Positions 5,619 to 62,569 of a DNA stretch of 64,000 nucleotides are shown piece after piece. The notes below the pieces were generated by a model. That model was not told the origin of the DNA and searched no databases. It worked only from the letters and a program-made list of their open reading frames with translations. Every line of letters begins with the position of its first letter. Position 1 is the first letter of the stretch. The stretch covers positions 310,001 to 374,000 of the forward strand of contig NW_024881613.1 in the NCBI RefSeq assembly GCF_019059575.1, written 5' to 3'. The translations under genes and the position numbers were made by a program. Source of the stretch: Amphibalanus amphitrite. Taxonomy: Eukaryota > Arthropoda > Thecostraca > Balanomorpha > Balanidae.

Positions 5619-7603
5619 ACGGTCGTCAAGTTAGATGTAAGTGAATCCTAATCTATAATCTAAGATTCGGAATCAGGCGAGCCCCTACGATTTGGACCAA
5701 ACTTGGTCAGTGGATAGTACGTAACGTCCTGATTACGATGCACCTAAAATCTAAGCTCGACCCGCCACATTTACGAAGTTACGGATGTTTCAATTTCAAG
5801 GTCATTCGGGAGAGCCCCTACGATTTCCGTCAAAATTTGTGTACGGACACTCTAGGTGCTCCTCATTACGAATATCACAAAATGTAAGCTCGGCCCGCCA
5901 TATTTACGAAGTTACGGATGTTTCAATTTCAAGGTCATTCGGGAGAGCCCCTACGATTTCCGTCAAAATTTGTGTACGGACACTCTAGATGCTCCTCATT
6001 ACGAATATCACAAAATTTAAGCTCGGCCCGCCATATTTAGGGGAGAGAGGTCATATTGCGCCACCTTAAGGATATCGGCCTATTGCGGCTAAAGTTGACC
6101 AGCTGTCATGCTTGATGATATCTCAAATTGTACCTCAGTTATTTTGGCATCAAATTACAACTCCTAATTTGTATCACACCCATAAAAATTAACAAGAGAA
6201 AAGTTTTCCGACACACCTGCAAAGGGCGCATTTACGGACCACCCCATCAAAAAGCGCCCATGCCTCTCATGTAAAAGCGCCCTATTAAAAACAACGGTTT
6301 GCCACCTAACTAAGTAGCCTGTTTGAACGTGTCAGCCCATTAACCATTTATGCTGTGAAGGCTAAGGTAATGTTAAGGTGAGCGCTCTAATAATCAAAGT
6401 GTTCAATGAAATGTGTCCCAACCACCAGATGTTGTTTCTCTGGGTTGAAGAATGGGCGCAAATAGGGTGGGCGCAATTACGAATGGAACACATTTTTCAT
6501 GAGCTTCAAATATGGCAAGGACAGCGAAGCCACGGTGGTGATAAACTTTCAAAAATACCATGAAATGAGCAATTAACAATTATTATTAGTTGAATCACTA
6601 TCTCTAAGATAAAGCATGACACTAGCAAAGGTCGAAATAGACTGTTTCGCGTAAGAAAATAGAGGAAATCACAAAAAATGGTCTGCGAGAAAGCTGAGAC
6701 ACCTCACCTGCCCCCGTGGACCGGAATAAGAGCGAGTTATTGGTGGTGAAGTAAATGCACACATTCGAGCATTCATTCGAATCGAATTTTGGACAGGAGG
6801 AAGGTGTGGCGCATTTAAGAACATGGCGCAATATGACCTCTCTCCCCTACGAAGTTACGGAGTCACAAAGTTACGGAATTTCAAGGTCATTGAGCGAGCC
6901 CCTCCGATTTTCGTCAAAATTTGTATGCGGACACATTACATGCTCCTCATTACGAATATCGTAAAAGCTAAGCTCGGCCCGCACTATTTCAAAAGTTACA
7001 GATGTTTGAATTTCAGTGAGTTTCAAACCTCAGTAACTTTTGAAATAGTGCGGGCCGAGCTTAGCTTTTACGATATTCGTAATGAGGAGCATGCAATGTG
7101 TCCGCATACAAATTTTGACGAAAATCGGAGGGGCTCGCTCAATGACCTTGAAATTCCGTAACTTTGTGACTCCGTAACTTCGTAAATATGGCGGGCCGAG
7201 TTTAAATTTTGTGATATTGGTAATGAGGATCATCTAGAGTGTCCGCACACAAATTTTGACGGAAATCGTATGGGCTCTCCCGAATGACCTTGAAATTGAA
7301 ACATCCGTAACTTCGTAAATATGGCGGGCCGAGCTTAAATTTTGTTAAATTCGTAATGAGGAGCACCTAGAGTGTCCGTACACAAATTTTGACGGAAATC
7401 GTAGGGGCTCTCCCGAATGACCTTGAAATTGAAACATCCGTAACTTCGTAAATATGGCGGGCCGAGCTTAGATTTTGGGTGCATCGTAATCAGGACGTTA
7501 CGTACTATCCACTGATCAAGTTTGATCCAAATCGTAGGGGCTCGCCTGATTCCGAATCTTAGATTATAGATTAGGATTCACTTACATGTAACTTGACGAC
7601 CGT
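5619..7603. mobile_element. Foldback element with tandem-repeat arms
   Basis: The ends ACGGTCGTCAAG and CTTGACGACCGT are inverted and flanked by an 8-base direct duplication GCTCTGTA (5,611-5,618 and 7,604-7,611). The arms contain tandem units of about 127 bp (motif TTACGGATGTTTCAATTTC, GGAGAGCCCCTACG) in inverted orientation, with a second switch of orientation near 7,010. A TA-flanked element is inserted inside (6,040-6,847). No transposase is present. Confidence 0.85.
6040..6847. mobile_element. TA-flanked element nested in the foldback
   Basis: The ends GGGGAGAGAGGTCATATTGCG and the inverted CGCAATATGACCTCTCTCCCC are flanked by TA. Intact copies of the surrounding 127-bp unit read CCATATTTACGAAG, so the insertion duplicated a TA. 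No open transposase frame was seen, so it is non-autonomous. Confidence 0.85.
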
Positions 7604-8140: not shown

Positions 8141-9345
8141 GGGGAAAGTGGGTGTATTGCGCCCTCCTAACCAATTGCGCCCACCAACATTCCCACGGAT
8201 TCAATGGCATGTTTTGAATTTTGTGTTCGAAAACATTATTTTCCCCACTGGATAGTTCCTTTTATGGCCCAAGCTCCCCGATGAAGCCAATCAGCGAGGC
8301 TCATTACGCCATCAAAGATGTTACGGCGTTTTCTTAGCTTTTTTGCAGTGTTTTGAGCCGTTGGCTATAAAAATGTGTGATATTTGTGTGATTTTCAGAG
8401 TGATATTTAGAAAGAAAAACCCTTTTTTCATTATATTTCACTAAAACAGTTAATTTCCTTCAACATCTTTATGATAACTTCCACGCTTTTATTAAAAAGT
8501 ACCTCAATTTTAATTGCGCCCATGGCAATTGCGCCAGGGGGGCGCAAATAGAATAATGGTGTAGCTATTGTATATCACGACAGCATGAATGCATCATTAA
8601 CTGATTGTAATAAAGAAGGAGTTTAAGGTCAGGCAGGGGAGCAGCCCGCTGTCGTCAGTCCGCAAATTATTTCTCTCGTCAAACTTATAATGCAGCTGCC
8701 ATTTAGGCTACGAACTTGTGTAATTGACAAAATACGACATTTTCAACATGGACTCAGGCGTGAGAGGTGACAGCTATGATAAAAAAGTAAAAACTGATGT
8801 CATAAAACTGTCGAAATAATGAAAATTATTAATTTTGAGAGAAACGATTGGAAATATAACCGTATAGGCGCATACGTTCACATATATCTAGTCGGTTACA
8901 GTAAACGTTTTCGTTGCACTTTTACAAGCGTACGAAGACATGTAAAGTTATCTACCTGGGCAAAAAAACATCGCGATTTACACCTAAATTTATTATTTAA
9001 CCAGCGTGAATAACATTATGAATGTTAAAGTAAGCCGCAATGACATTAGACTGCGGGGGTGTATGCATTCCGTCTCATTCGCTTAGCCATGTTAAAGTAT
9101 AGGGCGCAATTGGGTTCTAATTGCGCCATCCCCCTGGCGCAATTTACAGCAGTTGTTGGCAAATGCACCCTTTTACATGTTTCTGAAAAAGCAGCTGTCA
9201 GAAGCAAACGAAACATTCTTAATTGATCGGGAGGCTCTTAAATCGTAGCCTCTTTGAAATGGTCACTGATGCATGCTTATATCTCCAGCGGTTTTCTTAC
9301 AATTAGCGTTTTTCCTTAAGGTGGCGCAATTCACCCTCCTTCCCC
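8141..9345. mobile_element. TA-flanked 1.2-kb element, copy 1
   Basis: The left end GGGGAAAGTGGGTGTATTG and the right end CACCCTCCTTCCCC are partly inverted copies, both flanked by TA. The body repeats GCGCAATT/AATTGCGCC motifs, and a second copy occurs at 24,506-25,709 with similarity over the full length. No transposase frame is present. Confidence 0.85.
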
Positions 9346-13052: not shown

Positions 13053-14097
13053 TTAACCCACACCCTGCTGGGGGCTCACCCCCTCCAGTTTTCGCAAATA
13101 GCTAAAAAACGGCGATGCGGAGCGCCACCGCTTTTTCGCATATACGTCTTTTCTGCACATGCTGTAAAAATTTTAGACCAAGGTCACTTAACCCCCGCCC
13201 ATGTAGGGGGGGGGGTGCAACCCCCTCTGAGGTTTTTCTTAGCTACACGCCGAACCGTTTCAGATAGCCTGCTCAAATTTTCAGTACCCTCTGGGGCATC
13301 TTTTGCGCAACTTTTCGTATTTTTTGTCAAGGTCATGTCAGGTCACGGAGTTATGACGTCATAAAGGGAATAACCTCCGGCCAGATTTACGCTAAATTGG
13401 AGATTGCTTCACATTGGTATAAATGCCGACTGACCTGAGCACACTGATGGATTGTTTTAGAATCACAACTGGCTGATTTGACATTGGCACAATGTCCGTT
13501 GACATTTTGAAGGTTACCAAAGGTCAAGGTAAGGTCAGTGACCTCGGTTGACCTGTAATGACTTCTTGCACTTGTATGCCTTTTCGGGGTATTTTGATGC
13601 TCTGAATTCGAATTTTCTATCCATTCAGGCATCGTCGGTTGTTTCTTGTAGTTCATTTTGGGTCAGGGTCAGGTCAGTGACGTCACACGCCTGACGTGAC
13701 CCAATGCACAAATGACCTTGCAGACGATGCTCCCAACGCATCATTTTTAGAGTTATGACATCGAAATACACACCAAACGATAGAGAATTGATCAAGGATT
13801 ACGATAGTGAAAGTTTCAAGTCGATATCTCTTACCGTTTTGTCGCAATCGGCGCGGAAATCTGAAAAAGTTAGATTTTTTTTCCGAAAATCTGACCTTTG
13901 ACCGGTCATAAATAGGTCAAATGTTGACCTAGGACCAAATAATATACCACCAATCGCGAGACCTCGTTGAGAGCAATCCGTTGGTCTTTTCCGCTAAGCT
14001 CTACGACGCTCCGTTTTCAAACGCCAGGGGGTCGCACTAACCCCCCCCCCCCTGCATGGGCGAAGGTGGCAAAACACCGTTTACGGGCGAGGGTTAA
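13053..14097. mobile_element. TTAA-flanked element rich in TGACCT
   Basis: The ends are TTAACCCACACCCTGCTGGGG and GGGCGAGGGTTAA. The interior has several TGACCT and AGGTCA runs (13,330-13,720, 13,900-13,935). A long poly-C tract precedes the right end. It lies in the intron between the Cys-loop exon and exon 7. Confidence 0.75.
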
Positions 14098-14458
14098 GAT
14101 GTCACCAAGTCACGTCAAGTAATCTCACCTCATAAAAAGTTTCAATGCCAACAGTATGTAGAAAGTGTATACCTCGGAATTTTTATATGATGACCTAAGG
14201 TCAAGTCAATTTTGCTCCCTCTTCATCAAAAGTAAATGGGAGGAATTGAAAGGCGCCTCTTTTGTACAAATATGTACCATTCTCAACACCCTCAAACACC
14301 AACTTACAAGTAAACATGACACACAGAACTGGAAAAGAGCACCCGTGACCCCTTGTTATGTCCCTGAGGTTATCTCAGGTCACGTGGGTGAAGTGTCTAT
14401 AACTTCAGGCTGCTTCATCGCATGCAAAGGTCACCATTGCCAGTTGCCATGGACTCAC
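14098..14458. other. Intron flank of the Cys-loop exon, repeat-derived
   Basis: This stretch contains TGACCT/AGGTCA-rich sequence (14,185-14,430) similar to 42,900-43,250, so it is probably a fragment of the same TTAA-element family. Nothing coding apart from the exon that begins at its right edge. Confidence 0.5.
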
Positions 14459-24505: not shown

Positions 24506-25709
24506 GGGGAAAGTGGGTGTATTGCGCCCTCCTAACCAATTGCGCCCACCAACATTCCCACGAATTCAATGGCATGTTTATAATTTTGTGTTCGAAAACA
24601 ATATTTTCACCACCTGATAGTTCATTTTATGGCCCAAGCTCTCCGACGAAGCCAATCAGCAGGGCTCAGTTACGCCATCAAAGATATTACGGCGTTTGCT
24701 TAGCTTTTTTGCAGTACTTTGAACCGTTGGCTATAAAAATCTGTGATACGTGTGTGATTTTCAGAGTGATATTTAGAAAGAAAGCCCATTTTTTCATTAT
24801 ATTTCACTTAAACAGTAAACTTCCTTCAGCATATTTATGATGACTTCTACGCTTTTATTAAAAAGTACCTCAATTCTAATTGCGCCCATGGCAATTGCAC
24901 CATGGGGGCGCAGATAGAATAATGGTGTAGCTATTGTATCACGACAGTATGAATACACCATTAACTGATTGCAATAAAGAAGGAGTTTAATGCCAGGCAG
25001 GGGAGCAGCCCGCTGTCGCCAGTCCGCAAATTATTTCTCTCGTCAAACTTATAATGCAGCTGCCATTTAGGCTGCCAACTTGTGGTGTAATTGACAAAAT
25101 ACGGCATTTTCAATATCGACTCGGGCGTGAGAGGTGACAGCTATGATCAAAAAGTAAAAACTGATGTCAACAAGTTGTCGCAACGATAAAAATTAATAAT
25201 TTTGAGAGAAACGATTGAAAATTTAACCATACTTTCACATATATCTAGTCGGTTACATAAAACGTTTTCGTTGCACTTTTACAAACATACGGACACATGT
25301 AAAGTTATTTACCTGGGCAAAAACATCGCGATTTATATCTACATTTATTATTTATCCAGCCTGATTAACATTATAAATGTTTAAGTAAGCCGCAATGACA
25401 TTACACTGCCGGGGTGTATGCATTCCGTCTCATTCGCTTAGCCATGTTTAAGTATAGGGCGCAATTGGATTCTAATTGCGCCATCCCCCTGGCGCAATTT
25501 ACAGCAGTTGTCGGTAAATGCGCCCTTTTGCATGTTTCTGAAAAGCAGCTGTCGGAAGCAAACGAAACATTCTTAATTGATCGGGAGGCTCTTAAATCGT
25601 AGCTAATGAGTTCCTCTTTGAAGTGGTTACCAGTGCATGCTTATATCTCCAGCGGTTTTCTTACAATCAGCGTTTTTCCTTAAGGTGGCGCAATTCACCC
25701 TCCTTCCCC
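24506..25709. mobile_element. TA-flanked 1.2-kb element, copy 2
   Basis: This is a second copy of the element at 8,141-9,345, in the same orientation, with the same ends and TA flanks. The two differ by scattered substitutions and small indels. Confidence 0.88.
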
Positions 25710-29858: not shown

Positions 29859-32229
29859 TAGGGTTGTTCAAAAAAATCGAATTTTGGAAAAGTATACGGG
29901 CTCATGGCTCGTGTGGTGAGGTATTCTTTTCTGAGTCCAACGATGCCCTTTTTTCCGAAAAATATTAACTGCTTCATGCTCCCCAAACGGCTTGAAGAGG
30001 ACCATGTCACGCCCGGCGACCGGCCGGTGTCAATAAGGGCGAGAATTCGCCGCCGCGCGCCGGCGGAGGCGCCTTATCGGCACCGCGCGCCACGACATCT
30101 ACCGGGCGGCCGGCCGGCCAGTGGTGGGAGGGAATAAAATGCGTGGTCTTCTTTCACATGATAGGGGGATAGGGGTGCGCTAGCCCATGTTGTCGGAGCG
30201 GAAAGTTTCAGTGCAGCATCGGTACCTCTGCCGCGTTGTTCTGTGTCGATTGTTCAGAAAATAAGCCAAACAGAACTAAGAAAAGACTCAACGCTTCTGG
30301 GTAATTCACTCGAAACATTCCGTTTACAGAATACAGCTGCCTCCTTAGCGTAACATATCGCTTTGTTTATTCATCAAGCTGCAAGGATTGACGTTTGTTT
30401 TACTTAGATTAGCAGTTCGAAAGAAAAGATAACATGTCTGGGAATGACAGTTTGGCCACCCTTACAGTGTGACGAATTGAGTAGAGACAATAGCGGGAGT
30501 AGTGAGTACACATATAAATCAATTGTGTCGCTCAATCCAGCAGCGGCACCGGCAGCCGGCCGTGCCCACCGCGCCGGTGTCGTTCAAGACCCGAATCCAG
30601 AGCCGGCATAGAGCGCGTCACACATCCCCCAGGGCAGAGCCGCCCTGACCTGACACACATCCCCGGCGTGTCATGACGGACAGACTTATGCTTGACATCG
30701 CCTGTTTGGCGAATGACGATGGCAATGTTTACTTTTCCTATTTCTAATTAATTACGCATTTAACAAATATCTACGCTGTACGCAACAATTGTATCGTGCT
30801 AATCGCAACACAACAACCTGGTTTTGTAGTTAGGTAAAACAGACGATTGGAGCTGTCTCGTATCGATGTGGCCATTAGAAGCCGCGGAAACAGGGCAGAG
30901 CCGTGCTCTCTTTGCCAGGTCTGAATACGAGTCTTCGTCGAAGTAGAACTGGACGCTGATCACTTCTTGCCTCAACATGAGACTTAGAAATTGGTAAGTT
31001 AGGTATACTGTATACATTGTATTTATACAGGCGAGGTAATGGTCTGTCCGTCATGACACGCCGGGGATATGTGTCAGGTCAGGGCAGAGCCGTGCTCTCT
31101 GCCGGCTCTGGATCGGATCTTGAGCGGCATCGGTGGACATGGCCGGGCTGCTGATGCTGCTGCTGCCCGAAGGGTTGGATTGATGGGCGCTTGACATTAT
31201 GTGTACTCCAGCTATTGTCTCTACTCACACCCAACTTCGTCACGATGTCAGGGCGGCCACCGCGTCATTCCCGGGCATGTCATCCTTTTTTTAACTGCTA
31301 AGTGCTAATGTAGGTTAAACCTAACGTCGATGCCGGGGTCTCCATATTCTGTCCTTGCACATTGCCAGCTCCTGCTGTTCTTAGTAAACTTCAAATTTTC
31401 GCATACCGTTGGCAACAGCATATGTGGGCTGCAAGCCACCGTCTAAAAGCAATGTAAGTTGTCGACAGCAGTGCAAAGAGCTGTGTTATTGCTCAGAGTT
31501 CGCGTCTTGACTCATGAACAACGCGATATGGTATGTTGAGTGGCAGCTGGGTCCTGTTTCATTCACGGGCGCTTTTGTATTGAACAACCATGATCGATCC
31601 ACATTCTCAAAGTGCGTGGCGATTACTGCTCGCTAGCAGCCTACGTGTCAAATTGGGTGTCCATGGAGATATCAGCAAACTCAGACGATGTAGTCAGTCA
31701 GCCTGCCGGCAGCGTGGTAGCAGCAATCTTGGTAGCAGCGGCCGTGAAACGCCGCGCTGTATTCTCGAAACGAGATGTTTATAGTGAACTAGCCAGAAGC
31801 ATTGAGTCTTTTCTTAGTTCTGCTTGGCTTTTTTCTGAACCATCGGGCATCGACACAGAACACTGCGGCAGAGGTACCGATGCTGCACTGAAACTTTCCA
31901 CTCCGACAATATGGGCTAGCGCACCCCTATCATGTGAAAGAAGACCACTCATTCATTCCCTTACACCGGTCGGCCGGCCGCCCGGTAGATGTCGTGGCGC
32001 GCGGTGCCGATAAGGCGCCTCCGCCGGCGCGCGGCATCGAATTCTCGCCCTTATTGACACCGGCCGGTCGCCGGGCGTAACATCCTCCTCTTCAAGCCGT
32101 TTGGGGAGCATGAAGCAGTTAATATTTTTCGGAAAAGAGGACATCGTTGGACTCAGAAAAGAATACCTCACCACACGAGCCATGAGCCCGTATACTTTTC
32201 CAAAATTCGGTTTTTTTTGAACAACCCTA
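29859..32229. mobile_element. 2.4-kb foldback element with 9-base target duplication
   Basis: The ends TAGGGTTGTTC and GAACAACCCTA are inverted and flanked by the direct repeat TGGTGCAGT (29,850-29,858 and 32,230-32,238). Near-perfect inverted arms run through about 30,310 / 31,840 and continue with gaps to near 30,700 / 31,020. Arms contain (CCGG)-rich segments and short open frames that mirror each other. No transposase was seen. The 9-base duplication fits the Mutator/Foldback group. Confidence 0.88.
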
Positions 32230-32578: not shown

Positions 32579-33565
32579 GGGTAAGGTGCCTAATTAGCGA
32601 CCCTTTCCGATTTGCGACCTACCTCCCTACAGAAAAACTGGCAGGAGAAAACGGGGTACAAACATCGTCAAAAGGTCAGCTATACTTTGGAATTATCAAA
32701 ATAAATTATTTCCCGGTCGTCGATGTTTCTGGTGGGACGTTTCAGGTGAGTTTAAATAAAAATGTTAAGTTTCTTATCCAAAACGTGTGTGTTTGGGCCC
32801 TCTCTGATGAAAGGCGATGCACATTAGGATGATGCACCTTTTTTATTTTGAATCGACATTCCTTTTTCAATTGATTGCCGTTTTCCCATAGTGAATCGCT
32901 CAACTGTGCACAGCATGGCGGTTAAAAATGTGTCGCAACGCATATTTCCTATTTGCGCCTGACATGGTCGCAAATAGCTCAAGAAGGGAAAGAAAGGGGA
33001 AAAGAGAGAAATGAAAATGAGGTGTTGCTGAAGCTTGCAATGTGTGGCAGGGGATGCCAAATGTCGTCACCGACTGCAGGGGTGCCAAATTCAGCGCGGA
33101 CCTCGAATATCATACGAGATAGCCCGCAAAATCTGGGTTTCCGCCTTCTTTTCGCCTTCGGTGCATCACGTGATACCTAAGTTTTTACTTACGTAAATGT
33201 GTTGGATAAACGTTCCTGTTCGAGTGATTGAGTGCTATGCGTATAGGTTACCTTTTTGAGATCATATTTCATCTTTTCAGGCGTCGCATTTTTTGTCATT
33301 TTTAATGTGGGGAAACCCATAGACTTATTAGCGACCCTCCCCGGTCGCTATTCGGGAAGAGTTCCCTATTAGCGTTTTTTTTTTGCAATGGTTTGTCAAC
33401 ATGCTCACTACAGATAAGTTAGTGAATATTGGGGCAGAAAATGACTATATTTTAATAGAAAAATGAACGATCTCTCCGAAAATCAAGCCAGTAATACAGT
33501 GGCACCCACAGAGCGTGAGCAATGACGGTTCAAATTAAGGGGGTCGCTAATTAGGCACTTTACCC
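32579..33565. mobile_element. TA-flanked element with GGGTAAGGTGCC ends
   Basis: The inverted ends GGGTAAGGTGCCTAATTAGC and GCTAATTAGGCACTTTACCC are flanked by TA. It interrupts AAAATGGG / TTGATTCGATGC, which is nearly continuous in the related sequence at 2,370-2,395 (minus strand). It is non-coding. Confidence 0.85.
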
Positions 33566-42120: not shown

Positions 42121-43976
42121 AATACCAACGCCTTTTGGGGCGACTAACGGAGCGAGCGAGAGCGAGAGGGTGGGCCTTGCACGTGCGAAATTGCGAGGGG
42201 TACCTCCAACTGACTTTTGCACGGCACCCTACTAACCGGTCTCTAGCGATGTGCCAAATTTGGGCACAATCGGCCCAGCCGTTCTCGAGATCTGGAAGCG
42301 GCACCCTGCACGTGCGCACGTGCAAAATGAGTCCCAACTGACTTGTGCACGGCACCCTACTAACCGGTCCCTAACTGTGTACCAAATTTGAGCGCAATCG
42401 GTCGAGCCGTTCTCGAGATCTGGAAATGACCTCTGCACGTGCGCACGTGCAGCAGCACCCCAACTCTGGCACAGGGGTATGCAGTGCCTAGTGGGTGCCT
42501 ACCTACATGCCAACTTTCAGCGCCATCGGCCCAGTAGTTACCGAGATATTGCAGCAATTACAAAACTGACACCTCTTCGTTTTGCACGTGGCACGCGCAT
42601 AAGGGGTCACCCACATGCATCAGGAATAGTATAATACCTGGTAGAAGGAATGAAGCTACCCTACAAAAATTGCCGCATGTAAATCGGTCAAGTGGTTGCT
42701 GAGATATAAGCCTCGCAAAAGCGTCCGCACGGCCGGCCGGCCGGCCGCTCATACTCAGAAATTTCCGTTAACCCGCGCCCTGCTGGGGGGGGGGGGGGGG
42801 TGTTTGAACACCCCTCTTGTGTTTTTTCGCGAATATCTCAAAAACGGCGTTATCATGCATCAATTCTACACATGTTGTGAAAATTTCAGACCAAGGTCAT
42901 TCAAGGTCAGGTCACCAGGTCACTTGAAGTGACCTCACCTCATAAAAAGTTTCAATGTCTGCCATAGCTACACTGAGTGACCGATTGCTTTGAAACTTTC
43001 AGCGATTGCTGAGAGCAATAGCATGTACAAAATGTATGTCTCAGAATTTTGATATCGATGACCTAAGGTCAGGTCAATTTTGCGACCTCTCCATTATAAG
43101 TCAATGGGAGAAAATTGAAATGCGCCTCTTTTGGACGAAAGACATTATAAACACTCCCAAACACTGAATTACAAGTGGTTTAGACACACTGAACATGAAA
43201 ATGGTGTCCGTGACCCCTGTTTATGCCCCTGAGGTCATGTAAGGTCACGAATGGAATCTAACAGTTTTTCGCAAATAACTTTTGATAGAGGCATGCTAGA
43301 GCGATGAAAACGACTTAGATGTGTTCAGCTCGACGATACGGATCGACAGATATGCAACATGACCCTTTCCGGTCAGGTCATGACCTTGACCTGAGGTCAA
43401 ATTTTCAAGTTGACCTTTCAAGGTCAATTATAGTTCATTCGATGCGTCTTGACGAGAGGAACACGATGCCGGTAAAAGTAAGCTCGTACAAGGCTTGGGT
43501 CAAAAGTTATTTTGCAGAAAAACTGTTTCCGAAAAAATCAGTTATTTTTGCAGTTTTTGCCCCCTGCAGGCAAAACCGTTGAAGTTAGGTCAAATCTGAG
43601 AGAATTAATCAGAAAGGGCGTTAATAGGGCTATCGAATGCGCTTTTCTGCGACGCTGTAGCTCTATTGGTTCCCAAGTTATGCGTTGGCTTCTAGGAAAT
43701 TGTCGACATTCGACCTGGAAATTGGCGAAATTTTGCCTTTAATGACCTCTGCAGGTGACCTGACCTTTGACCTGACCAAAAAATTGACCGAAGTGATTTC
43801 GTCATTATTTTTGACGCTCTTTCGAACGCCGCCTTCCGCGTATCGCTACGTGGCCCAGGAGCCGAGTTAGAAGGGAGGGGGTGTTCAAACACCCCCCAGC
43901 AGGGCGTGAAAATCCAGGACCCCCAGCCGGGCGCGGGTCTAAGGAAAGAATCCGCTCGCTTCGCTCGCTCCATAAT
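42121..43976. mobile_element. E-box-rich element, copy 2 (split by a TTAA element)
   Basis: It begins like copy 1 at 27,041 with AACGCCTTTTGGGGCGAC, and carries two GCACGTGCGCACGTGC palindromes and a shorter GGCC run. It is interrupted at TTTCCGTTAA by the element at 42,768-43,937 and resumes with TCTAAGGAAAGA to TCGCTCGCTCC. Confidence 0.85.
42768..43937. mobile_element. CCCGCGCC-ended TTAA element, nested
   Basis: The left end is TTAACCCGCGCCCTGCTGGGG and the right end CCCAGCCGGGCGCGGG. Copy 1 of the host reads TTTCCGTTAATCTAAGG without interruption, so the insertion point is a TTAA; the right-hand TTAA has been lost. The interior carries TGACCT/AGGTCA runs and the ATATGCAACATGACC to ATTCGATGCGTC cassette. 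Confidence 0.87.
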
Positions 43977-45637: not shown

Positions 45638-46829
45638 TTTAACCTTCGCCCTGGTGGGGGGGGGGCCATTTTGGCCCCCCCCTGTGGTTTTTCAGCGATA
45701 ACTCAGAAACCACTTGAGTTAGCGCCCTGAAACTTTGTATAGCTGTTTATTCAACATTTTTACATCATGTCCTTTTTTGGGGGGTTCGGGTCAGGTCAGG
45801 TCAGGTCACAAGGTCACCAAAACTGACACCACCTCTAAAAAAGTTCAAAGCTCTCTCAAAGGCACAGCTTTTATCCGATCGATGTAAAATTTACAGTACT
45901 TGAAGATGTCACCCAGCTCTACAAAATGGCTATCTCGGATTTTTTATAAATGTGACCTAAGGTCAGGTCAGGTCATCGCTGCTCCCCATTATAAGTCAAT
46001 GGGAGAATCGAAAAGTAGTTGTTTTTCAGCTAAATCGGGCGTGATTGTTCCTATATTTCGTTATTGAAGTGTCTTGGGTCAGCAAATCACAGCCCATGTG
46101 AAACCATTTGCTTGTGACCTCGCTGAGGTCACGCTAGGTCATCTCCCTGGTCACCAGAGGTCACCAGCGGTTTTTCTGCACTTACTTGTTATTGAATAGA
46201 GATAGAGACTCCGTTCGACGTTTATCGTGTTTGTCTCGTCAATGCGGATCGAATGATATGCAGCATGACCTATTTCGGTAAGGTCATGACCTTGACCTGA
46301 GGTCAAATTTTCAAAATGACCTTTCGAGGTCAAACTATATATCATTCGACGCGTCTCGACGAGCCAAGCACGATGGTGCATGAATCGTTTCTCTATTTTC
46401 TCGTGAATGCATGCTATAGTTAAAAACATTTTCAACGAAATTTGCCAAGTTGACCTTGCATGACCTCTGTAGGCCAAACCGTTGAGCTGAGGTCAAATCT
46501 GACGAACCTTGGCGAAAGAGCTTGAAAAGAGCTATCGATTGCTTTTTTCCGCGGCTCTCTAGCTCTTCTAGTTTCCGAGCTACAGCGGAATATGTCCGGC
46601 AACACCGAAAACACTGAAATTTGACCTATGATGACCTCTAGCGACCTCAATATTGACCTTAGCGAAAAAATGACCGAAATACTTTCGAACGTACTTGTTA
46701 TGGGCTTTCGTTTGCTTTTTTCTGCGTCTTCCTAGCCCTCTTCGTTTTCGAGTTAGACGGGGGGGGGTCATTTTGGCCCCCCCCCACCAGGGCGAAGGTG
46801 GCTCAGACCCACACCAGGGCGCGGGTTAA
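45638..46829. mobile_element. TTAA-flanked element rich in AGGTCA
   Basis: The ends are TTAACCTTCGCCCTGGTGGGG and ACCAGGGCGCGGGTTAA. Subterminal blocks GGCCATTTTGGCC and GGTCATTTTGGCC are inverted. The body has AGGTCAGGTCAGGTCAGG at 45,788 and the shared cassette at 46,248-46,380. Confidence 0.88.
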
Positions 46830-49679: not shown

Positions 49680-50504
49680 AGGTGCCCCGGGTCGGGTTAC
49701 GGTCAGGTATGTGAGTACCCGGCGGTGGACCGGTCGCGGCGGGTCGGAGCGCGACAAACGACAAATGAATGGACTCGGAATGAGCGGCCGGTGGCGAGTT
49801 GCGAGCAGCCAGACTGAGTGAGGGGGAGGGACGTCTCCTGGAAATCCCTGGACAATTGAATAATGAGCGGTCACTGGTTACCAAGGGTAATAAATATACC
49901 GCAATCCTTGTGAATATGGAGATTGGACAGCCAGATAAGTTGATTAAACATGTTGATATATGGACAAGAGCATTTGATACTTACCTCAACATATGAACAC
50001 AAATCTTCCCGAATTTACCAAACATTTTCCAGGAATTTCAAATCGATTTGAAGCGTCTTGACAAACTCGAAACCGGCTTCACACTTGCTATATTGTCCAT
50101 ACAATCCAAACTACGAAGAAGATCTTTATACTGCAACGCGTTATTATTTCGCTTCGAACTGCGAATAGCTTCCCGTGAATTCACCGTAAATAAAATCATT
50201 TAGCCCTGCAATAAAAAATGAATATAGGTAAGGGCGTCTATTCTATCCACCACGCAGGCATAATGTAAATTCAGAAAATTAACGCCATCTAGCATTTCTT
50301 CGTTTTATACCTAAACTAGAGGTACAGGTTTACGCGATAACTGTATGCTCTGATATGTGTGATTAACGGATGCATTAGTTTGGGTGTAGAAACTTGCATT
50401 TTTATTGGTATTATTTGTTAAGAAGTGGGTAACTGCTTTTAATTGAACTGAACTAAGATGCATGCGAGTTGTTCGAGCCCTTTGTAAGTTAGGATGTTAC
50501 TCAA

Positions 50505-51185
50505 TTCAACCCTACCTTACCCTACCCTACCCTACCCCTACACTACCCTACCCTACCCTACCCTACCCTACCTACCCTACCCTACCCTACCCTTACACTA
50601 CCCTACCCTACCCTACCCTTACCCTACCCTACCCTACCCTACCTACCCTACCCTACCCTACCCTACCCTTACACTACCCTACCCTACCCTACCCTTACAC
50701 TACCCTACCCTACCCTACCCTACCCCTACCCCACCCTAACCTACCCTACCCTACCCCTACCCTACCCTACCCTACCCTACCCTTACCCTACCCTACCACT
50801 ACCCCTACCCCTACACTACCCTACCCTACCCCTACCTCTACCCCTACTCCTACACTACCCTACCCTACCCCTACACTACCCTACCCCTACACTACCCTAC
50901 CCTACCCTACCCCTACCCTACTCTACCCTACCCCTAACCCTACACTACCCTACCCTACCCCTACCCTACCCTATCCTACCCTTACCCTACCCTACCCTGG
51001 TCCCTACCTTACCCTACCCTACCCTACCCTACCCTACCCTACCATACCCTACCCTACACTACCCTGACCTACCCTACCCTACCCTACCCTACCCTACCCT
51101 ACCCTACCCTACCCTACCCCTACCCTACCCTACCCTACCCCACCCTACCCCTACCCTACCCTACCCTACCCTACCCTACACTACC
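50505..51185. repeat. (CCCTA)n satellite array 1
   Basis: This is a pentanucleotide array with variants CCCCTA, CCCTTA and CACTA. The minus strand is (TAGGG)n and could form G-quadruplexes. It differs from the usual arthropod telomere TTAGG. Confidence 0.95.
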
Positions 51186-51949
51186 ACCGACAGCCCAAGT
51201 TTCAGCTAAATCGGCCCAGAAACGGCTGAGATATTGCAAAAACAAATTAATTGTATTTACTGGCGAATCCCCCTGGCGAGCGGTGCCTTGTGTCGGCATT
51301 CGTTGTCAAAGGTCAACGACCTCCCGGCTCTGATGCTTTTCACTCAGTCTAGCAAGCGAACAACTGAGCCTAAAGCACGTGCGTTCTGCTCGGCGCCGGT
51401 CGCGCCCCCCACCACGTGCACACTGCTGAACCCACACCCTCGAAAATTTTATACGACAAATGAGTGCACGCGACCGACTTGGCGTGAAAATTTCACCCCC
51501 GTAGCCCTCACCGTTCCCGAGCAATGGCCTGTTTTTGCCGATTCTAATGCTAACCCTATGGCGCACATGAGCACGCGCCACGGGCGCACCCCCGGCCGCA
51601 TCGTGCCCAAAATTTAATACGACCTGTTTTATGACGTGACCCACGAGTGGCAAAAATTTCACCATCCTGCGTCAATCGACGGCGCCGTAATAAGCCTTTT
51701 AGGGAGTAACCCCGACGGCGTGGGCGGCGGACTTTTTAGGATTTATAATATAGATAGACTAGAGGTACAGGTTTACGCGATAACTGTATGTTTTGATATG
51801 TATGATAAACGGATGCATTGGTTTGGGTGTAGAAACTTGCATTTTTATTGGTATTATTTGTGTAGAACTGGGTAACTGCTTTTAATTGAACTATATGATG
51901 GTGATGCATGCGAGTTGTTCGAGCCCTTAATAAGTTAGGATGTTACTCA

Positions 51950-52665
51950 ATTTTAACCCTACCCTACCCTACCCTACCCCTACCCCTAACCTACCCTACC
52001 CCTACCCTACCCTACCCCTACCCTACCCCTACCCTACCCCTACCCTACCTCTACCCCTACACTACCCTACCTTACCATACCCTACCCTACCCTATCCTGC
52101 CCTTACACTACCCTACCCTACCCTACCCTACCCTACCCCTACCCCTACCCTACTGTACCCTACCCTACCCTACCCCTACACTACCCTACCCTACCCTACC
52201 CTACCCTACCCTACCCTACCCTACCCTTCCCCCTTACACTACCCTACCTTACCCTACCCCTACTCTACCCTACTCCTAACTTACCCTACCCTACCCTACC
52301 CTACCCTACCCTACCCTACCCTACCCTACCCTACCCTACCCTACCATACCCTACCTTACCCTACCCTAACCTAACCTACCCTACCATACCCTACCCTACC
52401 CTTACACTACCCTACCCTACCCTCACCCTACCCCTACCCTACACTACCCTAACCTACCCTACCCTACCCTACCCTACCCCACCCTACCTCTACACTACCC
52501 TACCCTACCCCTACCCTACAATTCCCTACCCTACCCTACCCTACCCTACCCTACAATCCCCTACCCAACCCTACCCTACCCTACCCTACCCTACCCTACC
52601 CTACCCTACCCTACCCTACCCTACCCTACCCTACCCTACCCTACCCTACCCTACACTACCACCGA
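51950..52665. repeat. (CCCTA)n satellite array 2
   Basis: It has the same composition as array 1 and sits at the same place in the second 1.44-kb unit. The interruption pattern differs, so the arrays have evolved separately since duplication. Confidence 0.95.
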
Positions 52666-53544
52666 CAGTCCAAGTTTCAGCTAAATCGGCCCAGAAACGG
52701 CTGAGATATTGCAAAAACAAATTAATTGTATTTACTGGCGAATCCTCTTGGCGAGCGGTGCCTTGTGTCGGCCTTCGTTGTCAAAGGTCAATGACCTGCC
52801 GGCCCACTCAGTTTTTTAAGCGAACAACTGAGCCTAAAGCACGTGCCCTCTGCTCGGCGCCGGTCGCGGCCCCACCACGTGCACACCGCTGAACGCACCC
52901 GCTCGAAAAGTTGACACGACAAATGAGTGCACGCGTCCGACTTGCAGTGAAAATTTCACCCCCGTAGCCCTTACCGTTCCCGAGCAATAGCGTGTTTTTG
53001 CCGATTCTAATGTTAACCCTATGGGCACGCGAGCACGCGCCGCGGGCGCACCCTCGGCCGCATCATGTCCAAAATTTAATACGACCTACGTGTAAAGGTG
53101 GCCCACATCGCTGTAAAATTTCACGGCCGTAGGTCAACAGACGCCGCCACAATAAGCGCTACAAAGTGACTACGTCGCACACGGCGTGGGCGGCGGGGTA
53201 CTTTTTAGGATTTATAATATAGATAACTACATTACTTATTCGCGTTGCGATCGCTCTTCCATATTCGACTACATCAACATTTACCGGGATTCTAACCGCA
53301 ACTTCGTTGCTAACTATAAAGTATGCATGCCTGCGGTCATCAACCGCGCATTCTACTACCGAACCACAGCCGGGTACAACTGCGCCCGCAGAGTATATCT
53401 CCAGGTCCTCTGCACAGTGCAGATCTGCCGGACAGGATGACCAACTCCGGTCAGATCTGCATATCGCTGTCGACCGACGACGTTTATAGCTTCAGGTGGA
53501 GACGGGGCGCAAATCACTGCTGCGGCTTACCCGCACCGAGCGGC

Positions 53545-53850
53545 CGGGTGGGTCCGTCACTCGCCGTCCGTACGACCCACTGGTCGGGTGGAGGATACGG
53601 ACCGTATCTGTCCGTACGACCCACTGGTCGGGTGGAGAATACGGACCGGATCTGTCCGTACGACCCACTGGTCGGGTGTGTAGGATACGGACCGGATCGT
53701 CCGTACGACCTACTTACTGGTGGGGTGTGGAGAATACGGTCCGGAGCCGTCCGTATAACCCACTGGTCAGTTTGAGAATGCGGACCGCGGATTCGTCCGT
53801 ACAAACCACTATAGTCGGGTGTGGAAAATACGGACCGGATCCGACGCTGC
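53545..53850. repeat. Minisatellite of about 55-60 bases
   Basis: About five to six units of CCGTACGACCCACTGGTCGG then GGAGAATACGGACCGGATCT. Units at the right edge are more diverged. Open frames through it are a by-product of the unit length. Confidence 0.85.
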
Positions 53851-53962
53851 AAGGCCCGGAGATGGCAACTATACTCTGCGTTTGCAGTCTCTGAGAAGGC
53901 TGCCGACTGATGCTGTCGCAAACTGTGCTTATAAACACGAATTTAACTGTCAAAGGGACGCT

Positions 53963-55426: not shown

Positions 55427-55859
55427 GGGACGCTGATCTACCTGACCGAGATTGTCATTTTGAAGATGCATTGCTTGTTCAAGCGAGTTATGACTTTTGG
55501 ACTTCAAGAGGACATCAAGTTTTAGTTTACCAATAGGATCAATGCTTTTATTACATGCGACGAATAATCCATCTAAGTAGCCGTCTATCATTGGATTTAG
55601 CTTGCGTCATCTTACAATACAAGTACCTCATGTGGGTGCATCGAATGTATGGTGATCATATTATGTCCGTGAAGTTGGCGACGTCGCCAGCGACTTTTCC
55701 AGCGACGAGCACCGATTTTAGCCAAAACCTCGTCCAAGGTCAATTGGACCATGAGGATCACGAAAATCGAACCCATTCACCCCTAAACCTTGACCTTCAA
55801 GATTCAAGGTCAAAGGACGGGGAACTGAAAAAGTGCCACTAAATATTGTCCGATTTTCA

Positions 55860-58800
55860 AAATTTTGGCACCAAAATGTAGCGCATGCAAAGTTCTAGCC
55901 GCACATCGAAAACCATTTTCATCAAGGTCAAACTTCAAGGTCAAATTCAAGGTCAAAGGACGGGGAACTGAAAAAGTGCCACTAGATATTGTCCGATCTT
56001 CAAAATTTTGGCACCAAAATGTAGCGCGTGCAAAGTTCTAGCCGCACATCGAAAACCATTTTCATCAAGGTCAAACTTCAAGGTCAAATTCAAGGTCAAA
56101 GGACGGGGAACTGAAAAAAAGCCACTAGATATTGTCCGATCTTCAAAATTTTGGCACCAAAATGTAGCGCGTGCAAAGTTCTAGCCGCACATCGAAAACC
56201 ATTTTCATCAAGGTCAAACTTCAAGGTCAAATTCAAGGTCAAAGACGGGGAACTGAAAAAGTGCCACTAGATATTGTCCGATCTTCAAAATTTTGGCACC
56301 AAAATGTAGCGCGTGCAAAGTTCTAGCCGCACATCGAAAACCATTTTCATCAAGGTCAAACTTCAAGGTCAAATTCAAGGTCAAAGGACGGGGAACTGAA
56401 AAAGTGCCACTAAATATTGTCCGATTTTCAAAATTTTGGCACCAAAATGTAGCGCGTGCAAAGTTCTAGCCGCACATCGAAAACCATTTTCATCAAGGTC
56501 AAACTTCAAGGTCAAATTCAAGGTCAAAGGACGGGGAACTGAAAAAGTGCCACTAGATATTGTCCGATCTTCAAAATTTTGGCACCAAAATGTAGCGCGT
56601 GCAAAGTTCTAGGCGCACATCGAAAACCATTTTCATCAAGGTCAAACTTCAAGGTCAAATTCAAGGTCAAAGGACGGGGAACTGAAAAAGTGCCACTAAA
56701 TATTGTCCAATCTTCAAAATTTTGGCACCAAAATGTAGCGCGTGCAAAGTTCTAGCCGCAAATCGAAAACCATTTTCATCAAGGTCAAACTTCAAGGTCA
56801 AATTCAAGGTCAAAGGACGGGGAACTTTAAAAATGCTACGTCACCAGCGACTTTTCCAGCGACGAGCACCGATTTTAGCCAAAACCTCGTCCAAGGTCAA
56901 TTGGACCATGAGGATCACGAAAATCGAACCCATTCACCCCTAAACCTTGACCTACAAGGTCAAATTCAAGGTCAAAGGACGGGGAACTGTTAAAGTGCCA
57001 CTAAATATTGTCCGATTTTCAAAATTTTGGCACCAAAATGTAGCGCGTGCAAAGTTCTAGCCGCACATCGAAAACCATTTTCATCAAGGTCAAACTTCAA
57101 GGTCAAATTCAAGGTCAAAGGACGGGGAACTGAAAAAGTGCCATTAAATATTGTCCGATTTTCAAAATTTTGGCACCAAAATGTAGCGCGTGCAAAGTTC
57201 TAGCCGCACATCGAAAACCATTTTCATCAAGGTCAAACTTCAAGGTCAAATTCAAGGTCAAAGGACGGGGAACTGAAAAAGTGCCACTAAATATTGTCCG
57301 ATTTTCAAAATTTTGGCACCAAAATGTAGCGCGTGCAAAGTTCTAGCCGCACATCGAAAACCATTTTCATCAAGGTCAAACTTCAAGGTCAAATTCAAGG
57401 TCAAAGGACGGGGAACTGAAAAAGTGCCACTAGATATTGTCCGATTTTCAAAATTTTGGCAACAAAATGTAGCGCGTGCAAAGTTCTAGCCGCACATCGA
57501 AAACCATTTTCATCAAGGTAAAACTTCAAGGTCAAATTCAAGGTCAAAGGACGGGGAACTGAAAAAGTGCCACTAAATATTGTCCGATTTTCAAAATTTT
57601 GGCACCAAAATGTAGCGCGTGCAAAGTTCTAGCCGCACATCGAAAACCTTTTTCATCAAGGTCAAACTTCAAGGTCAAATTCAAGGTCAAAGGACGGGGA
57701 ACTGAAAAAGTGCCACTAGATATTGTCCGATCTTCAAAATTTTGGCACCAAAATGTAGCGCGTGCAAAGTTCTAGCCGCACATCGAAAACTATTTTCATC
57801 AAGGTCAAACTTCAAGGTCAAATTCAAGGTCAAAGGACGGGGAACTGAAAAAGTGCCACTAAATATTGTCCGATCTTCAAAATTTTGGCACCAAAATGTA
57901 GCGCGTGCAAAGTTCTAGCCGCACATCGAAAACCATTTTCATCAAGGTCAAACTTCAAGGTCAAATTCAAGGTCAAAGGACGGGGAACTAAAAAAGGGCC
58001 ACTAAATATTGTCCGATTTTCAAAATTTTGGCACCAAAATGTAGCGGGTGCAAAGTTCTAGCCGCACATCGAAAATCATTTTCATCAAGGTCAAACTTCA
58101 AGGTCAAATTCAAGGTCAAAGGACGGGGAACTGAAAAAGTGCCACTAAATATTGTCTGATTTTCAAAATTTTGGCAACAAAATGTAGCGCGTGCAAAGTT
58201 CTAGCCGCACATCGAAAACCATTTTCATCAAGGTCAAACTTCAAGGTCAAATTCAAGGTCAAAGGACGGGGAACTGAAAAAGTGCCACTAGATATTGTCC
58301 GATCTTCAAAAATTTGGCACCAAAATGTAGCGCGTGCAAAGTTCTAGCCGCACATCGAAAACCATTTACATCAAGGTCAAACTTCAAGGTCAAATTCAAG
58401 GTCAAAGGACGGGGAACTGAAAAAGTGCCACTAAATATTGTCCGATCTTCAAAATTTTGGCACCAAAATGTAGCGCGTGCAAAGTTCTAGCCGCACATCG
58501 AAAACCATTATCATCAAGGTCAAACTTCAAGGTCAAATTCAAGGTCAAAGGACGGGGAACTTTAAAAATGCTACGTCACCAGCGACTTTTCCAGCGACGA
58601 GCACCGATTTTAGCCAAAACCTCGTCCAAGGTCAATTGGACCATGAGGATCACGAAAATCGAACCCATTCACCCCTAAACCTTGACCTTCAAGGTCAAAT
58701 TCAAGGTCAAAGGACGGGGAACTGAAAAAGTGCCACTAAATATTGTCCGATTTTCAAAATTTTGGCACCAAAATGTAGCGCGTGCAAAGTTCTAGCCGCA

Positions 58801-59195
58801 CATCGAAAACCATTTTCATCAAGGTCAAACTTCAAGGTGAAATTCAAGGTCAAAGGACGGGGAACTGAAAAAGTGCCACTAAATATTGTCCGATTTTCAA
58901 AATTTTGGCATCAAAATGTAGCGCGTGCAAAGTTCTAGCCGCACATCGAAAACCATTTTCATCAAGGTCAAATTTCAAGGTCAAATTCAAGGTCAAAGGA
59001 CGGGGAACTGAAAAAGTGCCACTAAATATTGTCCGATTTTCAAAATTTTGGCACCAAAATGTAGCGCGTGCAAAGTTCTAGCCGCACATCGAAAACCATT
59101 TTCATCAAGGTCAAACTTCAAGGTCAAATTCAAGGTCAAAGGACGGGGAACTGAAAAAGTGCCACTACATATTGTCCGATTTTCAAAATTTGACC
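55860..59195 (+). repeat. 143-bp satellite units, left arm
   Basis: The unit order is GCAAAGTTCTAGCCGCACAT, CGAAAACCATTTTCATCAAGG, three TCAAGGTCA motifs, GGACGGGGAACTGAAAAAG, TTGTCCGAT, TTTTGGCACCAAAATGTAGC. Successive units start 142-143 bases apart and are nearly identical. All units open the same short frames, which are not genes. Confidence 0.95.
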
Positions 59196-62100
59196 TTGAA
59201 TTTGGCCTTGAAGTTTGACCTTGATGAAAATGGTTTTCGATGTGCGGCTAGAACTTTGCACGCGCTACATTTTGGTGCCAAAATTTTGAAAATCGGACAA
59301 TATTTAGTGGCACTTTTTCAGTTCCCCGTCCTTTGACCTTGAATTTGACCTTGAAGTGTGACCTTGATGAAAATGGTTTTCGATGTGCGGCTAGAACTTT
59401 GCACGCGCTACATTTTGGTGCCAAAATTTTGAAAATCGGACAATATTTAGTGGCACTTTTTCAGTTCCCCATCCTTTGACCTTGAATTTGACCTTGAAGG
59501 TCAAGGTTTAGGGGTGAATGGATTCAATTTTCGTGATCCTCATGGTCCAATTGACCTTGGACGAGATTTTGGCTAAAATCGGTGCTCGTCGCTGGAAAAG
59601 TCGCTGGTGACGTAGCATTTTTAAAGTTCCCCGTCCTTTGACCTTGAATTTGACCTTGAAGTTTGACATTGATGATAATGGTTTTCGATGTGCGGCTAGA
59701 ACTTTGCACGCGCTACATTTTGGTGCCAAAATTTTGAAGATCGGACAATATTTAGTGGCACTTTTTCAGTTCCCCGTCCTTTGACCTTGAATTTGACCTT
59801 GAAGTTTGACCTTGATGAAAATGGTTTTCGATGTGCGGCTAGAACTTTGCACGCGCTACATTTTGGTGCCAAAATTTTGAAAATCGGACAATATTTAGTG
59901 GCACTTTTTCAGTTCCCCGTCCTTTGACCTTGAATTCGACCTTGAAGATCAAGGTTTAGGGGTGAATGGGTTCGATTTTCGTGATCCTCATGGTCCAATT
60001 GACCTTGGACGAGGTTTTGGCTAAAATCGGTGCTCGTCGCTGGAAAAGTCGCTGGTGACGTAGCATTTTTAAAGTTCCCCGTCCTTTGACCTTGAATTTG
60101 ACCTTGAAGTTTGACCTTGATGAAAATGGTTTTCGATGTGCGGCTAGAACTTTGCACGCGCTACATTTTGGTGCCAAAATTTTGAAGATCGGACAATATT
60201 TAGTGGCACTTTTTCAGTTCCCCGTCCTTTGACCTTGAATTTGACCTTGAAGTTTGACCTTGATGAAAATGGTTTTCGATGTGCGGCTAGAACTTTGCAC
60301 GCGCTACATTTTGGTGCCAAAATTTTGAAGATCGGACAATATCTAGTGGCCTTTTTTCAGTTCCCCGTCCTTTGACCTTGAATTTGACCTTGAAGTTTGA
60401 CCTTGATGAAAATGGTTTTCGATGTGCGGCTAGAACTTTGCACGCGCTACATTTTGGTGCCAAAATTTTGAAGATCGGACAATATCTAGTGGCTTTTTTT
60501 CAGTTCCCCGTCCTTTGACCTTGAATTTGACCTTGAAGTTTGACCTTGATGAAAATGGTTTTCGATGTGCGGCTAGAACTTTGCACGCACTACATTTTGG
60601 TGCCAAAATTTTGAAGATCGGACAATATCTAGTGGCACTTTTTCAGTTCCCCGTCCTTTGACCTTGAATTTGACCTTGAATTTGACCTTGAAGTTTGACC
60701 TTGATGAAAATGGTTTTCGATGTGCGGCTAGAACTTTGCACGCGCTACATTTTGGTGCCAAAATTTTGAAAATCGGACAATATTTAGTGGCACTTTTTCA
60801 GTTCCCCGTCCTTTGACCTTGAATTTGACCTTAAAGTTTGACCTTGATGAAAATGGTTTTCGATGTGCGGCTAGAACTTAGCACGCGCTACATTTTGGTG
60901 CCAAAATTTTGAAGATCGGACAATATTTAGTGGCACTTTTTCAGTTCCCCGTCCTTTGACCTTGAATTTGACCTTGAAGTTTGACCTTGATGAAAATGGT
61001 TTTCGATGTGCGGCTAGAACTTTGCACGCGCTACATTTTGGTGCCAAAATTTTGAAAATCGGACAATATTTAGTGGCACTTTTTCAGTTCCCCGTCCTTT
61101 GACCTTGAATTTGACCTTGAAGGTCAAGGTTTAGGGGTGAATGGGTTCGATTTTCGTGATCCTCATGGTCCAATTGACCTTGGACGAGGTTTTGGCTAAA
61201 ATCGGTGCTCGTCGCTGGAAAAGTCGCTGGTGACGTAGCATTTTTAAAGTTCCCCGTCCTTTGACCTTGAATTTGACCTTGAAGTTTGACCTTGATGAAA
61301 ATGGTTTTCGATGTGCGGCTAGAACTTTGCACGCGCTACATTTTGGTGCCAAAATTTTGAAGATCGGACAATATTTAGTGGCACTTTTTCAGTTCCCCGT
61401 CCTTTGACCTTGAATTTGACCTTGAAGTTTGACCTTGATGAAAATGGTTTTCGATGTGCGGCTAGAACTTTGCACGCGCTACATTTTGGTGCCAAAATTT
61501 TGAAGATCGGACAATATCTAGTGGCCTTTTTTCAGTTCCCCGTCCTTTGGCCTTGAATTTGACCTTGAAGTTTGACCTTGATGAAAATGGTTTTCGATGT
61601 GCGGCTAGAACTTTGCACGCGCTACATTTTGGTGCCAAAATTTTGAAGATCGGACAATATCTAGTGGCACTTTTTCAGGTCCCCGTCCTTTGACCTTGAA
61701 TTTGACCTTGAAGTTTGACCTTGATGAAAATGGTTTTCGATGTGCGGCTAGAACTTTGCACGCGCTACATTTTGGTGCCAAAATTTTGAAAATCGGACAA
61801 TATTTAGTGGCACTTTTTCAGTTCCCCGTCCTTTGACCTTGAATTTGACCTTGAAGTTTGACCTTGATGAAAATGGTTTTCGATGTGCGGCTAGAACTTT
61901 GCACGCGCTACATTTTGGTGCCAAAATTTTGAAGATCGGACAATATTTAGTGGCACTTTTTCAGTTCCCCGTCCTTTGACCTTGAATTTGACCTTGAAGT
62001 TTGACCTTGATGAAAATGGTTTTCGATGTGCGGCTAGAACTTTGCACGCGCTACATTTTGGTGCCAAAATTTTGAAGATCGGACAATATCTAGTGGCACT

Positions 62101-62400
62101 TTTTCAGTTCCCCGTCCTTTGACCTTGAATTTGACCTTGAAGTTTGACCTTGATGAAAATGGTTTTCGATGTGCGGCTAGAACTTTGCACGCGCTACATT
62201 TTGGTGCCAAAATTTTGAAATTCGGACAATATTTAGTGGCACTTTTACAGTTCCCCGTCCTTTGACCTTGAATTTGACCTTGAAGTTTGACCTTGATGAA
62301 AGTGGTTTTCGATGTGCGGCTAGAACTTTGCACGCGCTACATTTTGGTGCCAAAATTTTGAAAATCGGACAATATTTAGTGGCACTTTTTCAGTTCCCCG
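59196..62400 (-). repeat. 143-bp satellite units, right arm (inverted)
   Basis: This is the same unit in the opposite orientation. The switch at about 59,196 falls in CAAAATT|TGACC, between two half units. One unit near 60,665-60,690 has a fourth TGACCTTGAATT block, a 12-13 base expansion. Confidence 0.95.
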
Positions 62401-62569
62401 TCCTTTGACCTTGAATTTGACCTTGAAGGTCAAGGTTTAGGGGTGAATGGGTTCGATTTTCGTGATCCTCATGGTCCAATTGACCTTGGACGAGGTTTTG
62501 GCTAAAATCGGTACTCGTCGCTGGAAAAGTCGCTGGCGACGTCGCCAGCTTCACGGACATGATCATATT

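Follow-up and report, generated by a model that had tools for sequence, protein, structure and literature searches.

We identified what is very probably a non-autonomous Foldback-type DNA transposon of 6,898 bp, located at 55663-62560 of the 64-kb stretch of DNA analysed here (the window), whose two inverted arms are built of tandem satellite units. Its anatomy, taken from a direct reading and a script parse of the window, marks it as a Foldback-type mobile element, and this assignment is well supported: a 9-bp duplication flanks the element, its tips occur at its borders only, and its arms are inverted arrays of tandem repeats. The kind of element is already known, and this one looks like an unusually pure example of it.

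Borders and terminal units

Perfect 9-bp direct copies of GATCATATT (9 of 9 bases) lie immediately outside both ends of the element, at 55654-55662 on the left and 62561-62569 on the right. From the base composition, the chance of any 9-base match at two given spots is about 4e-6. A third GATCATATT is found in the window at 33260, which is unremarkable for a 9-mer in 64 kb. The sequence-only reading of this DNA had described a palindrome with a 9-base duplication at its borders, and the position of these copies, directly outside matched inverted ends, bears that description out.

The ends of the element are ATGTCCGTGAAGYTGGCGACGTCGCC. Its inverted tips read ATGTCCGTGAAG from 55663 and CTTCACGGACAT up to 62560; each of these 12-mers occurs once in the window, which, judged by them, holds one copy of the element. 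Just behind the tip lies the palindrome GGCGACGTCGCC, present in the window only at the two element ends. Tip and palindrome belong to a terminal unit. On the left (55663-55814, plus strand, 152 bp) this unit runs from ATGTCCGTGAAG through GGCGACGTCGCC into sequence common to the internal 162-bp units described below, and on the right (62404-62560, minus strand, 157 bp) it ends in CTTCACGGACAT. As terminal inverted repeats, the 152- and 157-bp units differ by two substitutions and one 5-bp gap. The flanks of the element, compared over 400 bp per side, are two different sequences, each of which matches itself alone in the window.

Organization of the arms

Tandem Repeats Finder returned two arrays of period 143, at 55797-59191 and 59189-62428. 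The centre, earlier put at 59,196, had to be moved to 59189-59191, where a TTT fits either arm as a 3-bp microhomology without any spacer. A split of the arrays at 59195 puts 21 full 143-type units in the left arm and 18 in the right, all 142-155 bp long, and also yields five units of 162 bp and two partial ones, of 55 and 136 bp. Setting the junction at 59189-59191 completes the innermost right unit (136+7 bp), with a stub of 51 bp remaining on the left, which gives 40 full 143-type units as assembled. The left arm (55815-59191, plus strand) then contains 21 full 143-type units together with two of 162 bp and the truncated innermost unit of 51 bp; in the right arm (59189-62403, minus strand) there are 19 full 143-type units and three of 162 bp. 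About 40 tandem 143-bp units in opposed arms with no spacer had been proposed, and this stands.

The same proposal had the element made almost only of the 143-bp unit. The 143-bp arrays are indeed present, but a second unit of 162 bp, a copy of the end sequence that occurs five times, had been overlooked. It is found in the left arm at 56815-56976 (first) and 58550-58711 (second), both on the plus strand, and in the right arm at 59475-59636 (innermost), 59923-60084 (middle) and 61098-61259 (outermost), all on the minus strand. Each copy is a terminal unit whose outer tip is swapped for the first bases of the 143-bp unit, and all five lack both the tip and the palindrome GGCGACGTCGCC. With T for the terminal unit, A for the 143-bp unit and B for the 162-bp unit, the order from outside to centre is T, 7 A, B, 11 A, B, 3 A, stub on the left and T, 8 A, B, 7 A, B, 2 A, B, 2 A on the right. 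The palindrome is correct as to the opposed arms but not as to exact mirror symmetry, since the arms differ in length (3,533 and 3,365 bp by script) and in sequence (3,111 of 3,169 ungapped aligned positions are identical).

Signs of exchange within and between arms

Two sites, used to define subtypes after the variation had been seen, divide the A units into a (A,T), b (G,C) and c (A,C), with d and, in the stub, x as singles. Subtype c precedes the 162-bp unit in five of five cases and subtype a follows it in five of five; subtype a also follows both terminal units. The combined order count of 12 was reached in none of 20,000 shuffles, indicating that unit order is non-random. Divergence was measured on the 37 units that are exactly 143 bp long, a sample that leaves out the 142-bp, 155-bp and partial units. 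Any two of them differ on average by 3.20 per unit (2.2%), with 3.33 differences per 143 within the left arm, 3.01 within the right and 3.20 between arms, and the 30 singleton changes amount to 0.57% per site. The longest exact stretch common to the arms, 328 bp, occupies non-mirror positions (left-end offset 2848, right-end offset 1262); as these offsets do not match, blocks appear to have moved between the arms out of register. Unit order, even divergence and the 328-bp stretch all fit an exchange or conversion of blocks within and between arms.

Coding capacity and searches for relatives

The element has no stop-free frame of more than 100 codons. There are 37 stop-to-stop frames of 120 aa or more in the window; Pfam (E 0.01) gave no match in the 30 of these that were scanned, the rest being six simple-repeat frames at 50447-52892 and one frame at 53490-53894. 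Rfam, at the gathering threshold, and ARAGORN returned nothing in the window. Outside the element, nothing in the window is significantly related to the 143-bp unit (best E 0.3). For the 162-bp unit there were two weak hits, at 9091-9221 (E 6.5e-4) and 25449-25575 (E 0.011); in control searches the reversed window produced no hit, and the lowest E value over 20 Markov-shuffled windows was 2.3. Both stretches were rejected as relatives of the unit; they look like copies of one other repeat family. Patterns from the units, the ends and the neighbouring repeats had no exact match in viral and genome contig collections, and distant blastn of 55654-56100 against plasmids had no match either, these being collections not meant for eukaryote genomes. 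Five short stretches of the repeat unit were not found in the text of papers.

Classification

Two features by which Foldback elements are recognized are present, namely long terminal inverted repeats (TIRs) composed of tandem repeats with non-repeated outer ends, and a target site duplication (TSD) at both borders. The sequence-only reading had assigned the element to Foldback elements of the Mutator group. The anatomy confirms the Foldback form, whereas the Mutator assignment, drawn from the 9-bp duplication and the foldback form, is only plausible. Provided that the element is of Foldback type, we lean towards a Mutator-like (MULE) transposase as its likeliest source. The 9-bp duplication lies within the 8-11 bp range of MULEs and has the length typical of the MULE and Rehavkus groups, according to the excerpts of one account (PMC6446971). 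In most arthropod MULEs a G or C is conserved in the first three TIR bases, according to the excerpts of a survey (PMC13359780); this is a tendency rather than a strict definition, and the ends here, which begin with ATG (ATGTCC), depart from it. The ATG ends, the fact that no transposase was found, and the known independent origins of the foldback form all speak against the MULE label. Moreover, a 9-bp duplication is not exclusive to MULEs.

Alternative explanations

Long, near-identical inverted arms without a spacer are a known form of artefact, and a foldback (hairpin) read or a misjoin could have made the palindrome during library preparation or assembly. Such a foldback artefact would mirror one arm together with its flank. 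Here the arms are unequal in length and unit order, the longest stretch they have in common is out of register, the flanks differ, and a perfect 9-bp duplication is found at both borders; we therefore consider an artefact very unlikely. Inverted satellite junctions also occur in genomes, and the bulk of the element is tandem satellite, as would be expected if two opposed segments of ordinary genomic satellite had been joined by inversion with no transposon involved. To this we give barely any credence, in that both arrays end in the same special unit, whose tip is found nowhere else in the window, and that these end units adjoin the 9-bp duplication. One point against the transposon reading is that the window contains a single copy.

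A third alternative accepts the Foldback-type element and concerns only what moved it. A transposase of another superfamily is an appreciable though lesser possibility, given that Galileo of the P superfamily shows an independent origin of the form. Different TE lineages may give rise to foldback structure, as the excerpts of the Tetris account state (PMC4079207), and two further TIR elements in the window carry duplications of 8 and 10/11 bp; since these lengths occur in the same window, several transposases may be at work. Set against this is the 9-bp length itself, typical of MULE and Rehavkus elements (PMC6446971) and of Tm1 (PMC3169594) in the excerpts of those reports.

Comparison with known foldback elements

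Tetris is a foldback element of Drosophila virilis and, as far as the excerpts of its description go, resembles the element in several respects (PMC4079207). It is non-autonomous, has no ORF and makes TSDs of 8-10 bp; in its long TIRs, tandem repeats of about 220 bp follow an outer flanking domain that is in part related to the repeat. Unlike Tetris, the present element has a 143-bp unit, arms of about 3.4-3.5 kb and no middle domain, and its end unit reappears as whole 162-bp copies within the arms. The TIRs of Tetris reach 1,735 bp, so that the 6.9-kb element is far larger; in the view of the Tetris authors, transposition may be blocked when arrays are long (PMC4079207, excerpts). By this analogy, this 6.9-kb copy may have lost its mobility.

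Tm1, a Mutator/Foldback family of root-knot nematodes, likewise has composite TIRs of tandem repeats, an unequal repeat number on each side and mostly 9-bp TSDs, but differs in its repeats of about 14 bp, its non-inverted outer 7-bp motifs and the existence of copies with a Phantom-like transposase, in the excerpts of its report (PMC3169594). Rehavkus, described in excerpts as an outgroup or early branch of MULEs, shares the 9-bp TSD and a minisatellite within the element (PMC6446971). Its defining features are a PHD-finger transposase and a minisatellite before the 3' TIR (PMC6446971, excerpts). In the element described here, repeats fill both arms, and there is no coding capacity and no such transposase, although it could still be a non-autonomous derivative of Rehavkus.

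The target duplication of Galileo is 7 bp, unlike the 9 bp here. Galileo also differs in belonging to the P superfamily, and shares with the element long TIRs with internal tandem repeats, which in Galileo hold extra transposase binding sites; the THAP domain of its transposase binds these further sites, according to the excerpts of the Galileo report (PMC3688188). It serves as a model for a possible role of the repeats in the present element.

Proposed mechanism and relation to satellite DNA

We envisage a transposase supplied in trans that would bind the ends of the element and, as reported for Galileo, probably additional repeated sites within the arms, with the internal copies of the end unit as potential extra binding sites. 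Cleavage at the ATGTCCGTGAAG tips would be followed by joining to a 9-bp staggered target. Cleavage at the outer tips would fit the distribution of the tip and GGCGACGTCGCC, which are found only at the borders and are missing from the internal 162-bp units. Unequal exchange or gene conversion, within arms as well as between them, would make the arms longer and more uniform, and the element probably lost its original middle through a join at a microhomology that left only the ends and the satellite.

Satellite-carrying transposons are one proposed route for the origin and dispersal of satellite DNA. This copy would represent a late stage, with ends and array alone, end-sequence units mixed in and signs of inter-arm exchange. 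The element is most likely a carrier of a satellite array; that it would also spread or seed satellite DNA is plausible, with Tetris as the precedent. For Tetris, expansion into separate satellite arrays has been shown, in the excerpts of its description (PMC4079207). If the genome contains other copies and free arrays of the same units, transposon-to-satellite conversion could be tested directly, as for Tetris.

AGGTCA boxes in the satellite and the window

The element contains 126 copies of TCAAGGTCA (65 and 61), with three copies in 32 of 37 units and two in the other five. TCAAGGTCA resembles an extended nuclear-receptor monomer site. Elsewhere in the window, 18 copies were observed against about 0.5 expected. 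The AGGTCA box is enriched about sixfold outside the element (146 observed against 23.8 expected) and ranks second, behind GGGGGG, among 6-mers with at least 30 occurrences once the ACCCT arrays are excluded. These outside boxes are clustered. At 45793-46660, six merged boxes are spaced 160-175 bp apart, an evenness equalled in none of 20,000 random placements; for the partly homologous cluster at 42894-43773 the corresponding value is 0.0002. The pair, related copies whose pieces are 70-83% identical, was chosen after being seen. Box spacing across the two is about 153-189 bp. A further cluster at 13181-14203 is irregular, with gaps of 41-286. Among the 15 pairs of between-box segments at 45793-46660, one exceeded the 99th percentile of shuffles and one equalled the 95th; most do not align beyond chance. 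A search of paper titles and abstracts for AGGTCA boxes linked to tandem repeats, transposons or TIRs returned nothing relevant.

One could imagine that the satellite is kept for its boxes, in that a host factor would recruit the mobile array of about 126 TCAAGGTCA copies to a germline-active or structural chromatin state. The AGGTCA box would then be shared, in the manner of a CENP-B box, by otherwise unrelated repeats of this genome, namely the 143-bp unit, the 133-bp unit (see below) and old arrays with a box every 160-175 bp, whose DNA for the most part has ceased to align. We think this unlikely.

Other repeats in the window

A second foldback-type element of 1,985 bp lies at 5619-7603, with inverted ends ACGGTCGTCAAGTTA, an 8-bp duplication GCTCTGTA and 133-bp tandem units in opposed arms; the 133-bp unit also contains TCAAGGTCA. 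Inside this element, at 6040-6847, is an 808-bp insertion with inverted ends (GGGGAGAGAGGTCATATTGCGCC) and TA on both sides, and joining its flanks restores a 21-base stretch that is intact in other 133-bp units. A 2,369-bp element at 29860-32228 has inverted arms of about 480 bp (90% identity), ends AGGGTTGTTC and the duplication TGGTGCAGTT, which is 10 bp long, or 11 bp with one mismatch. Finally, 50306-53229 is a tandem duplication with a 1,443-bp offset and 86% identity, each copy of which holds a degenerate ACCCT array of about 0.7 kb.
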